Below are positions 11,934 to 21,551 of a stretch of 64,000 nt of DNA, in pieces. The DNA lies in contig CP034537.1 of NCBI GenBank assembly GCA_004000515.1, positions 558,001 to 622,000 of the forward strand, read 5' to 3'. A program made the position numbers and the translations under genes. The notes under the pieces were generated by a model, which was not told where the DNA came from, made no database searches, and saw only the letters and a list, made by a program, of their open reading frames with translations. Numbering within the stretch: the stretch's first letter is position 1; the number at the start of each line of letters is the position of its first letter. Origin of the DNA: Pseudomonas poae. Its GTDB lineage: Bacteria > Pseudomonadota > Gammaproteobacteria > Pseudomonadales > Pseudomonadaceae.

Positions 11934-12920
11934 ATGACTGTTCCCATCGCGATCATCGGCACCGGCATCGCCGGTCTCTCCGCCGCCCGAGCGTTACGAG
12001 ACGCGGGGCACGTTGTACAACTCTTCGATAAAAGCCGTGGCAGTGGCGGCCGCATGTCCAGCAAGCGCAGCGATGCCGGCCTCACTGGACATGGGCGCAC
12101 AATACTTCACCGCCCGCGACCGTCGCTTCGTCAATGAAGTGCAGCGCTGGCAAAGCAACGGCTGGGCCGAGCAGTGGAAACCCCAGCTGTACAACTTCAA
12201 GTCCGGCCAACTCACGCCCTCCCCCGATGAACAGATCCGCTGGGTCGGCACGCCGCGCATGAGCGCCATCACCCGCGCCCTGCTTGATGACCTGCCGGTG
12301 GAGTTCGGTTGCCGCATCACCGAAGTTTTCCAGGGCACCCAGCACTGGAACCTGCTGGACGCCGACGGCGGCAACCACGGCCCGTTCAGCCACGTGATCA
12401 TTGCCACCCCAGCGCCCCAAGCCACTGCCCTGCTGGCCGCCGCGCCGAAGCTGGCGAGTGCCGCCGCCGGCGTGAAGATGGACCCCACCTGGGCCATCGC
12501 CCTGGCCTTCGACACCCCGCTGGACACCCCCATGGAAGGCTGCTTCGTGCAGGACAGCCCCTCGACTGGCTGGCGCGCAACCGCAGCAAACCGGGACGCG
12601 ACACGGCCCTCGACACTTGGGTGCTGCACGCCACCAGCGCCTGGAGCAGGGCCCACCTGGACCTGCCCAAGGAAGCAGTGATCGAACACCTGCACGGCGC
12701 ATTTGCCGAACTGCTGCACAGCGCCATGCCTGCGCCGTCGTTCAGCCTGGCGCACCGCTGGCTCTACGCGCGCCCCTCCAGCAGCCATGAATTCGGTGTG
12801 CTGGCCGACGCCGACCTGGGCCTGTACGTGTGTGGCGATTGGTGCCTGTCAGGCCGAGTCGAGGGTGCGTGGCTCAGCGGCCAGGAAGCCGCGCGACGCT
12901 TGATCGAACACCTGCAATGA
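11934..12920 (+). CDS. FAD/NAD(P)-dependent oxidoreductase, renalase-like; two frameshifts (near 12080 and 12550)
   Basis: About 328 aa with an N-terminal FAD-binding Rossmann motif ([15 protein letters not shown]) and the [13 protein letters not shown] segment of the renalase-like group, and a C-terminal FAD closing segment ([22 protein letters not shown]). Substrate unknown. Two compensating breaks: an extra C in GCCGGCCTC near 12080 and a missing C in AGCCCCTCG near 12547; correcting them gives SDAGSLDMGAQ and [10 protein letters not shown]. Preceded by a LitR-type operator candidate and overlapping the next gene by ATGA, it appears to be part of the light-linked module. Confidence 0.85.
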
Positions 12921-13132
12921 ACCGCATCAATCCCGCCAAATTGCTGCTGTCGAAGTGGACAGCAGCACGCCCCCAGAACAAGGAAAAACATTTCCTGGTC
13001 ACAGAACTGTTCCGTGACGAAGAAGGCACCGTGCTGGAAATTGAACTGCAGGCCGTCATGACCCGACGCGTCGAACGCCTCGCCTGGCAAACCCTGCAAA
13101 ATGCCGAAGACTGGAAAATCGGCTGGCAGTAG
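12917..13132 (+). CDS. TIGR02450-family small tryptophan-rich protein
   Basis: 71-aa protein beginning [16 protein letters not shown], matching the short conserved family TIGR02450 found beside photolyase genes; function unknown. The start overlaps the preceding stop as ATGA (12917-12920), so translation is coupled to the FAD oxidoreductase. Three tryptophans and the ending DWKIGWQ are characteristic. Confidence 0.85.
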
Positions 13133-13147
13133 CCCCCTCGCAAAACT

Positions 13148-13171
13148 TGTACAAATAATTTGACTTGTACA
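13148..13171 (+). promoter_or_regulatory. LitR/PplR-type operator 1, TGTACA-N12-TGTACA
   Basis: Two exact TGTACA hexamers at 13148-13153 and 13166-13171 separated by 12 bases. This equals the direct repeat T(G/A)TACA-N12-TGTA(C/T)A reported for class II LitR (PplR1) of P. putida. The right half starts right at the -35 box TTGACT (13160-13165), so a bound regulator would block RNA polymerase. Confidence 0.88.
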
Positions 13172-19008: not shown

Positions 19009-19811
19009 ACAGCGCCCTGTACAGCGGCTGGATTGCCCATCGCCGGTTTGCGCCCAAGGCTCATGCCTTTCGCTACCGCATCGGCCTGCTGTATTTGGAT
19101 TTGAGCGAGGAACATGAGGTACTTGGGCTATCGCCCCTGGCCGGACCCAGCCGCTTTGCGCCGTTCGGTTTTCGCCAGCAGGACTACCTGCGTGAATTGA
19201 CGCGTACCGGCATGAGCTTGAGCGATGCCGTGCGCCAAGAAGTCGGCAAGGCGCTGGGGCGTACGCCCCAGGGCGTTATCTGCCTACTGACCCAGGCCCG
19301 CAGTTGGGGCCTGGCCTTTAACCGTGAGTTTCTTCTACTGCTTCGAGGCCGACGGGCAACTGGCCGCGATCCTGTGTGAAGTGACCAACACCCCATGGCG
19401 CGAGCGCTATCACTACGTGCTGCCGGCCATGGCACTGGGCGCCGATGAGCACCAGCATTTCGCCGTGGCCAAGGCCTTTCATGTGTCACCGTTCCTGCCG
19501 CGCGACCTGGAATACCGCATGAGCTTCAGCCCGCCCGCCGCCAGGCTTGGCGTGCATATGGCCGACTGGCAGGGCGCGCAAAAAGTCTTCGATGCCACCT
19601 TGAGCCTGCAAAGGAAGCCCTCAACCGCGCCAGCTTGCATCGCTACCTGTGGCGTTTTCCGTGGATGACCGCCAAGACCTGCCTCGCCATTTACTGGCAG
19701 GCCCTGCGCCTGTTGCTCAAACGCACACCGATTTTCCCCCACCGGGCCGCCGATGGCGACGCTCGTATTGCAGTCGGGTATCCCAAGGATCGCCGCCATG
19801 AAAACCCCTAG
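19005..19811 (+). CDS. DUF1365 family protein; two frameshifts (near 19322 and 19608)
   Basis: About 269 aa after repair. N-terminus SALYSGWIAHRRFAPKAHAFRYRIG, central FN-PVSFFYCF (family FNPVSFYY motif, split by a 2-base loss at 19322) and LHRYLWRFPWMTAKTC C-terminal part joined by adding an A near 19608. GTG start overlaps the flavoprotein stop; the stop TAG at 19809-19811 lies inside the next gene. DUF1365 has no assigned reaction but is found almost always with this flavoprotein and a CFA-like synthase. Confidence 0.85.
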
Positions 19812-21067
19812 CTTATCGGTCAAGGCCAACCGCCTGAACGTCAACGGCATGACCAGCGCACTGCTGCGCAAGGCCGTACTGCGTCAACTCAGCCAACTGC
19901 GCCACGGCCAGTTGGTGGTGATTGAGGAGGGCGAACGCCAAGTATTCGGCGCACGCGAGGCGCACCTGCTGGGGGAAATCCAGATCCTCGATCCGGCGGT
20001 GTGGGGCCTGGTGGCGGCCAACGGTTCCATCGGCGCCGGCGAGGCGTTTATCCATGGTTACTGGAGCAGCCCGGACCTGACCGCGGTGGTGCGCGTGATG
20101 GTCAGCAACCTGGACGTGCTCGACGCGATGGAAGGCGGCCTGGCACGCCTGGCTCGGCCACTCACCCAGGGTTTGCACTGGCTCAACCGCAACACGCGCA
20201 AAGGCTCGCAAAAAACATAGCCGCCCACTACGACCTGGGCAACGACCTGTTCGAGGAATTCCTCGACCCGACCATGATGTACTCGGCGGCGCAGTTCCTC
20301 ACACCGACGACACCCTGGAACAGGCGCAGTTGAACAAGCTGGAACGTATCTGCCAGAAGCTCGCGCTCAAGCCCGACGACCATCTGCTGGAAATCGGCAC
20401 CGGCTGGGGCAGCATGGCGTTGTATGCCGCGCAGCACTACGGCTGCAAGGTCACCACCACGACCTTGTCCAAGGAACAGTTCGCCTATACCGAAAAACGT
20501 ATCGAGGCCCTGGGGCTGCAAGGCCAGGTCACCCTGCTGTTGCAGGACTACCGCGACCTCACTGGCCAGTACGACAAATTGGTGTCCATCGAAATGATCG
20601 AAGCGGTGGGCCATCGCTTCCTGCCGACCTACTTCAAACAGTGCGCGCACCTGCTCAAGGACAATGGCCTGATGTTGCTGCAAGCCATCACCATCCGCGA
20701 CCAACGCTACGAACAAGCCAAGAGCAACGTCGACTTTATCCAGCGTTACATCTTCCCCGGCGGCGCCCTGCCCTGTGTGCAAAAGATGCTGGAGATCGTC
20801 AGCCGCGACACCGACATGAACCTGATGCACATGGAGGATTTCGGCCTGCACTACGCGCGAACCCTGCGCCTGTGGCATGAGAACTTTCGCCGCGCCCATG
20901 GCCGTCTGGCAGAGTTGGGCTACGATGAGTACTTCCTGCGCTTGTGGGAGTTCTACTTGTGCTACTGCGAGGGTGGGTTTATGGAACGCACGATTGGTAC
21001 CGCACAATTACTGTTGGCCAAGCCGGCCGCGCTCAACCCGCCATTGCTCGGGCGTTTCAGTGCTTAA
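19798..21067 (+). CDS. Cyclopropane-fatty-acid-synthase-like SAM methyltransferase; two frameshifts (near 20208 and 20300)
   Basis: About 423 aa. N-terminal lipid-binding part (IHGYWSSPDLTAVVRVMV), then AAHYDLGNDLFEEFLDPTMMYSAAQF, SAM motif LEIGTGWGSMAL, EMIEAVGH, and the C-terminal LCYCEGGFMERTIG typical of CFA synthases. Missing A in CAAAAAAC (20208) and missing C at 20300 break the frame. CFA synthases methylate unsaturated acyl chains of membrane lipids; paralogues in this cluster type (UfaM) make methylated precursors of furan fatty acids, singlet-oxygen scavengers. Which reaction applies is not decidable from sequence. Confidence 0.9.
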
Positions 21068-21551
21068 ACCGTTGGCGAATGCCGTACTGTTCCAGTGTGG
21101 CTGGTTTGCCTGTGTACTCGGCGGGGATAGTCGATGGTTGCTGTTGGGGCTGGCGGTTCTGGCCATCCACCTGCTGTGGATAAGCGCCTGGTCCAAGGAC
21201 GGCCAAGTGATCCTCGCCGTGACCTTGCTGGGAACAGTGATAGACACCTCGCTGCGCACCTTCGGCGTGTTTCATTTCAGCCTGCCGGGGCCGTTGATTC
21301 CGTTTTGGTTGATCCTGTTGTGGGCATTGTTGGCGACCACGTTGCGCCATTGCCTGGGCTGGAGTGCACGGCCCTGGTGGCGATGCAGCCTGTTGGGCGC
21401 GGTGGGTGGACCGCTGTCGTATTACGCGGGCAGCCAATTGGCCGGGGTCAGTTTCGGCTATGGCACCGCCACCACGCTGATCGGCCTGGCCCTGCTTTGG
21501 GCGCTGCTGTTTCCCGTGCTGCATTGGGTTGCGGACCAACTCGGACACTGA
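21060..21551 (+). CDS. DUF2878 integral membrane protein
   Basis: 163-aa protein of about five hydrophobic segments (ANAVLFQCGWFACVLGG, WLLLGLAVLAIHLLWI, LIPFWLILLWALLATTL, LLGAVGGPLSYYAGSQL, LIGLALLWALLFPVLHWV). GTG start at 21060 overlaps the CFA-like stop by 8 bases. DUF2878 is a usual last member of this lipid-modification cluster; function unknown. A DUF3833 partner often found beside it is not present. Confidence 0.85.
   Translation: MLKPLANAVLFQCGWFACVLGGDSRWLLLGLAVLAIHLLWISAWSKDGQVILAVTLLGTVIDTSLRTFGVFHFSLPGPLIPFWLILLWALLATTLRHCLGWSARPWWRCSLLGAVGGPLSYYAGSQLAGVSFGYGTATTLIGLALLWALLFPVLHWVADQLGH

Follow-up and report, generated by a model that had tools for sequence, protein, structure and literature searches.

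A predicted blue-light locus with two units under LitR control in Pseudomonas poae

Why should genes for DNA photorepair and for acyl-chain modification stand together in one run of eleven genes? The question is raised by a locus of Pseudomonas poae (assembly GCA_004000515.1, contig CP034537.1; the genome has 7.52 Mb in two contigs). It lies in a window of 64,000 nucleotides, i.e. the whole stretch of DNA that was analysed (C1:558001-622000). On the + strand of the window, between 11934 and 21551, the genes for renalase, a TIGR02450/DUF2389 protein, RudS, LitR, PhrB, an NTF2-like protein, an SDR, UfaD, UfaO, UfaM and a DUF2878 protein follow each other in just the order given by an original prediction, which took them for a single module. 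Here we describe the genes and their order, the promoter, the LitR boxes and their conservation, and a LOV gene paired with a second LitR gene in the same genome, all of which were established directly. In all likelihood the locus serves the response to blue light and consists of two LitR-controlled units.

Two units behind LitR boxes

Unit 1 (11934-13132) comprises renalase and the TIGR02450 protein, the start of which overlaps the renalase stop by 4 nt. Unit 2 (13244-21551) comprises nine genes, from RudS to DUF2878. The 111-bp gap between the TIGR02450 and RudS genes contains a promoter and two LitR sites; thus, a two-gene and a nine-gene unit have to be distinguished. A single eleven-gene module had to be abandoned, as the first two genes have their own promoter and box. 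The near-continuous overlapping or abutting junctions that had been claimed were found within 13244-21551, where neighbours overlap or nearly touch, and not at the TIGR02450/RudS gap. Medians over the 37 joined loci, of which the window is one, were -11 to +32 nt for gaps within the nine genes and 152 nt for the DUF2389-RudS gap (31 pairs), all measured between match ends.

The promoter of the nine-gene unit has TTGACT at 13160 and TATGAT at 13182. The footprinted P6650 promoter of P. mendocina consists of TTGACT-N16-TATGAT and two TGTACA-N12-TGTACA sites bound by PmlR2 (PMC9758184; here and below, statements on papers refer to excerpts of them). The pattern TRTACM-N12-TGTAYA occurred at five places in the 7.5 Mb genome, three of them in the cluster region, and the reversed control gave none. 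Across 44 loci 115 matches were observed versus 0 in mononucleotide shuffles. A box was present no more than 130 nt upstream of RudS in 35/36 loci, of renalase in 35/35 (window included) and of NTF2 in 7/43; upstream of the eleven other genes tested none was found within this distance. At least 119 named loci matched the promoter pattern, and RudS was the first gene in 78 of the 80 that were listed. These 80 partly overlap our genome set, i.e. the two sets are not independent.

Judged by its sequence, Unit 2 represents a further Pseudomonas copy of the known LitR/LOV light operon. In P. mendocina pmlR1 is accompanied by phrB and ufaM, by genes for an SDR and an FAD-dependent oxidoreductase, and by four genes for hypothetical proteins. 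Nine genes (PME6650-PME6610) respond alike to light and were judged to form one polycistron; phrB and ufaM were raised 25 to 33 fold. PmlR2, a class II LitR, represses, and the illuminated short LOV protein PmSB-LOV inhibits PmlR2 (PMC9758184). The predicted light-induced transcript for photorepair and lipid enzymes was thereby borne out in outline, being published for nine orthologous genes and not for eleven. The LitR of the window carries B12-binding_2 as the sole domain beside the MerR helix-turn-helix (HTH), which places it in class II. A short LOV gene (C1:2623159-2623512), the frame of which appears disturbed near the C-terminus, is located about 1 kb from the second LitR gene (C1:2621486-2622181).

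RudS proteins, including PP_0741, are tRNA 4-thiouridine (s4U) desulfidases encoded in an operon with phrB and litR (PMC11417400). Cys14, Cys46 and Cys111 of the window RudS correspond at a constant offset, counted by eye, to Cys17, Cys49 and Cys114 of PP_0741. In a P. putida co-culture the transcript levels of PP_0738 to PP_0742 increase in concert (PMC11014904). These data demonstrate co-regulation, not light induction.

The renalase unit

What does Unit 1 add? The orthologue of the FAD oxidoreductase in L036, the corresponding locus of the relative G017, matched 4zcc_A Renalase over 328/328 positions (E 1.5e-185), and by homology the window protein is a bacterial renalase. Entry 4zcc we take to be the P. 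phaseolicola renalase of a published paper. Bacterial renalase acts on 2- and 6-dihydro-NAD(P); despite this known chemistry we know of no bacterial role for the enzyme.

The renalase box, TATACC-N12-TGTACA, has the half-sites of the folM box read on the opposite strand. In P. mendocina the box of light-induced folM is TGTACA-N12-GGTATA, and its promoter was bound by PmlR2 in a gel shift (PMC9758184). The sequence around the renalase box varies more than the box itself, and one locus (L067) has a perfect TGTACA-N12-TGTACA in its place. Among 22 genomes without a joined lipid half 17 had the exact renalase box. It was also present in 52/56 listed named loci with enough upstream sequence; the other four had TATACT in the first half. 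Because the renalase unit has a LitR-type box of its own at a fixed place, the light response probably includes cofactor clean-up. We lean towards the view that LitR controls renalase and its Trp-rich partner as a standing part of the Pseudomonas blue-light response, in which light would trigger the clean-up of damaged NAD(P)H isomers together with protection of DNA, tRNA and membrane. In P. putida 17522 (L226) the renalase box is present and no gene was seen between renalase and RudS. Therefore, PP_0742 is, by position only, probably a renalase. A literature search that covered other work than the main P. putida light study returned no report of the renalase unit as a LitR-controlled arm. This second arm is what the present analysis adds; the nine-gene operon had been published.

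The features are collected in Table 1. For the NTF2-like, SDR, TIGR02450/DUF2389 and DUF2878 proteins we know of no reaction. To the left of the cluster TIGR01777 and hemH are located in the opposite orientation. Behind the operon a CxxCxxCC (PF03692) protein is encoded at 21606-21911; the gap was at least 52 nt in the relatives measured (29 pairs) and the gene was excluded from the operon.

Table 1. Features of the two units and their promoters in window coordinates.
Feature	Position	Strand	Basis
LitR-type box TATACC-N12-TGTACA, renalase promoter	11861..11884	+	Pattern scan; present in 35/35 joined loci with renalase
Bacterial renalase (FAD oxidoreductase), frame broken in assembly	11934..12920	+	Intact L036 orthologue matches 4zcc_A; best window piece 96% to L036
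TIGR02450/DUF2389 Trp-rich protein	12917..13132	+	Family match; TIGR02450 assigned on L036 copy
LitR site 1, TGTACA-N12-TGTACA	13148..13171	+	Arrangement as in P. mendocina P6650
Promoter TTGACT-N16-TATGAT	13160..13187	+	-35, spacing and -10 as in P6650
LitR site 2, TGTACA-N12-TGTACA	13198..13221	+	Pattern match
RudS (TudS + DUF1722), tRNA s4U desulfidase family	13244..14203	+	PF04463, PF08349; three Cys
Class II LitR, MerR HTH + only B12-binding_2	14207..15124	+	Domain matches
PhrB DNA photolyase	15125..16570	+	PF00875, PF03441
NTF2-like (SnoaL_2) protein	16563..16985	+	Domain match; stays with SDR and UfaD where the lipid genes stand alone
SDR oxidoreductase	16982..17764	+	PF00106
UfaD-like flavin desaturase	17761..19008	+	PF01593, PF13450
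UfaO-like DUF1365 protein, frame broken in assembly	19005..19811	+	PF07103 in three pieces; L036 copy intact
UfaM-like CMAS-family acyl methylase, frame broken in assembly	19798..21067	+	PF02353 in longest piece; L036 copy intact
DUF2878 protein	21060..21551	+	PF11086, 146 bits

The lipid enzymes and their distribution

The UfaD flavin desaturase, the UfaO DUF1365 protein and UfaM of the CMAS family are adjacent in the window, and the UfaO and UfaM frames are intact in L036. The reactions of UfaM, UfaD and UfaO were characterised in alphaproteobacteria; UfaO homologues carry DUF1365, and the characterised relatives of UfaD and UfaO act on a methylated chain (PMC7380195). Five or more genes had been said to lack a known reaction. 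The number is smaller, with characterised relatives of these three enzymes, of RudS (PMC11417400) and of renalase. The likeness to Rhodobacter singlet-oxygen clusters, also predicted, was already in print: PSPTO_1121-1116 is listed as the P. syringae counterpart of the singlet-oxygen core regulon of R. sphaeroides (PMC5507510).

Families of the broken window genes were assigned with the intact L036 proteins, and for the structure of UfaO a close homologue was used (P0002; 94% identical to the L036 protein; alignment of 65 homologues; predicted local distance difference test, pLDDT, 88.5; predicted template modelling score, pTM, 0.88). The model is a confident one and shows the strands of a barrel with a long helix behind them. 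Among solved structures, nitrobindin-like and fatty-acid-binding barrels matched it best, with middling scores. The modelled fold names no cofactor and would fit a lipid-holding barrel.

As full-length UfaD we counted matches of at least 650 bits, a cut of our own. This gave 44/59 Pseudomonas genomes, compared with 55 at E 0.001, the remainder being short or weak. Because 37 of the 59, the present genome among them, have UfaD behind PhrB and 31 of these 37 gave a match for every one of the nine genes, the gene order of the nine-gene unit is, by this comparison, not a matter of chance. In the other seven of the 44 genomes NTF2-SDR-UfaD-UfaO-UfaM-DUF2878 is located elsewhere with an intact UfaD, and a TGTACA-N12-TGTACA box precedes NTF2 in 7/7. 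Boxes that are kept where lipid genes sit apart from repair genes suggest that light control of the lipid change is selected for in its own right.

In L075, L082 and L083 the separate lipid genes adjoin a short LOV gene and a relative of LitR, and in L082 and L083 a CryB-like gene follows the lipid genes (LOV and CryB labels are readings of the sequence). These loci look like a compact second light cassette. The genome G046 carries, besides a complete joined copy, a second lipid cluster (L055) with a broken UfaD, no UfaM match and a box about 260 nt upstream.

In the wider class UfaO was detected in 76/274 genomes at E 1e-15, the present one included. Neighbourhoods were fetched for 39 of the other 75, mostly the stronger ones, and some end at contig ends. 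With score thresholds of our own, UfaD, UfaO and UfaM were found together in 36 of the 39 loci, DUF2878 in 23, NTF2 and SDR in 14 each. A photolyase, CryB, RudS or LitR gene was contained in 16 of the fetched stretches. The vicinity of the UfaDOM core often held a further and weaker CMAS-family match, scoring about 70 to 100 bits against the UfaM model (L109, L116, L117 and similar); possibly it has a FufM-like role. In a gammaproteobacterium outside Pseudomonas (L141, about 6100-10700) a renalase-like gene precedes UfaD-UfaO-UfaM and a PhrB-like gene follows.

Proposed mechanism, comparison with known systems

We propose that class II LitR proteins occupy the TGTACA-N12-TGTACA boxes in darkness and repress. 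In blue light the short LOV protein would remove LitR from the DNA and both units would be transcribed. The nine-gene operon would then supply PhrB, repairing pyrimidine dimers, and RudS, removing photosensitive s4U from tRNA. Phospholipid acyl chains would be methylated by UfaM, desaturated by UfaD and oxygenated by UfaO on the way to methylated furan fatty acids, the presumed scavengers, and the NTF2-like, SDR and DUF2878 proteins would be made along with them. From the two-gene unit would come renalase, oxidising wrongly reduced NAD(P)H isomers, and the Trp-rich protein. Light induction and the repressor mechanism of the nine-gene unit as well as the reactions of RudS, renalase and UfaM/D/O were established by others in relatives, and the proposal carries them over by analogy. 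We infer that the mechanism is valid in the present strain and that light induces the renalase unit, too.

Several points weigh against this proposal. First, 15/59 Pseudomonas genomes had no full-length UfaD match; therefore the lipid half is, on this count, dispensable. Second, 23/39 class-level loci had no light gene in the fetched stretch. Third, the exact renalase box was missing in five of the 22 genomes mentioned above: two have a version with two mismatches and three have none, and one of these three (G054) also shows no RudS adjoining renalase. Fourth, the P. putida transcripts rose in co-culture (PMC11014904) despite a presumably lower light per cell, and therefore light may not be the sole inducer. 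Fifth, UfaM, UfaD and UfaO orthologues of P. syringae and R. sphaeroides are 35-39% identical (PMC5507510), and deletion of the R. palustris UfaM homologue RPA3082 (38%) had no significant effect (PMC7380195). Sixth, a furan fatty acid from Pseudomonas was absent among the literature matches listed. Finally, renalase, UfaO and UfaM are each split over several frames in the window assembly.

Possibly, the Pseudomonas lipid genes make a non-furan product under the same light control, e.g. a chain that is only methylated or diunsaturated, or a cyclopropane. The literature listings are in line with this, and L036 UfaM reached 291 bits with the E. coli Cfa model, cut-off 400, and stayed under the cut-offs of the other models as well, i.e. 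the family alone leaves the product unfixed. Against it stand UfaD and UfaO, the relatives of which act on a methylated chain, beside UfaM in the 36 class-level loci counted above. We regard a non-furan product as unlikely, with roughly a one-in-five chance.

Singlet oxygen acting through an RpoE/ChrR pair, rather than light via LitR/LOV, is improbable as the main input. An RpoE-like PSPTO_1043 motif is located upstream of the orthologous P. syringae cluster (PMC5507510), levels of furan fatty acids (FuFA) in R. sphaeroides increase when chrR is lost (PMC7380195), and the present genome has one partial Cupin_7 (ChrR-type) match over the curated cut-off (31.5 bits, cut-off 27, frame of 142 amino acids). 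Yet the promoter has conserved LitR boxes, and among pseudomonads the sigma/anti-sigma pair was said to occur in no other group than that of P. syringae (PMC5507510). Even less credible is decay of the lipid half in this strain by real mutations in the split UfaO and UfaM frames, as the breaks extend to hemH and TIGR01777, which adjoin the cluster, and to many further genes of the window, i.e. 18 of the 49 open reading frames (ORFs) that were compared with G017, whereas L036 is intact throughout.

The 49 ORFs were chosen by length and include shadow ORFs (the row at UfaO is one). Among the 37 printed rows with at least 75% identity to G017, 14 were broken by manual count, hemH among them. Because hemH and many neighbouring genes are affected, indels of an unpolished assembly are the likely and simplest cause of the frame breaks. 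Breaks occur in other relatives as well (L064: hemH, TIGR01777, SDR and UfaM; L055: UfaD).

The proposed light-controlled locus of two units can be compared with five known systems. The R. sphaeroides and R. palustris pathway relies on the UfaM, UfaD and UfaO families as well, the locus tags of which follow each other in R. palustris (RPA2569-2571; PMC7380195); control in R. sphaeroides is by RpoE/ChrR, whereas here LitR boxes are present and the furan product of that pathway, 9M5-FuFA, is predicted only. P. syringae PSPTO_1121-PSPTO_1116 unites phrB, SDR, UfaD, UfaO and UfaM orthologues in one locus, for which an extracytoplasmic function (ECF) sigma input was reported (PMC5507510). PME6650-PME6610 belongs to P. 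mendocina NBRC 14162, a different Pseudomonas. Unit 2 has the same nine genes in the same order, and its promoter shares the -35, the -10, the spacing and both LitR sites; the text covered says nothing of a renalase pair upstream (PMC9758184). A class II LitR with a short LOV partner, as in the present genome, is common to P. mendocina and the PplR1 regulon of P. putida. With PP_0741 the window RudS shares, by sequence, the TudS + DUF1722 fusion, the three Cys and the operon with phrB and litR (PMC11417400). The bacterial renalase 4zcc is matched in full length by the L036 orthologue; in the window the frame is broken and the gene stands behind a LitR-type box. This conserved box would tie an enzyme of known chemistry to light stress. 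If true, bacterial renalase gains a physiological setting, to our knowledge its first.

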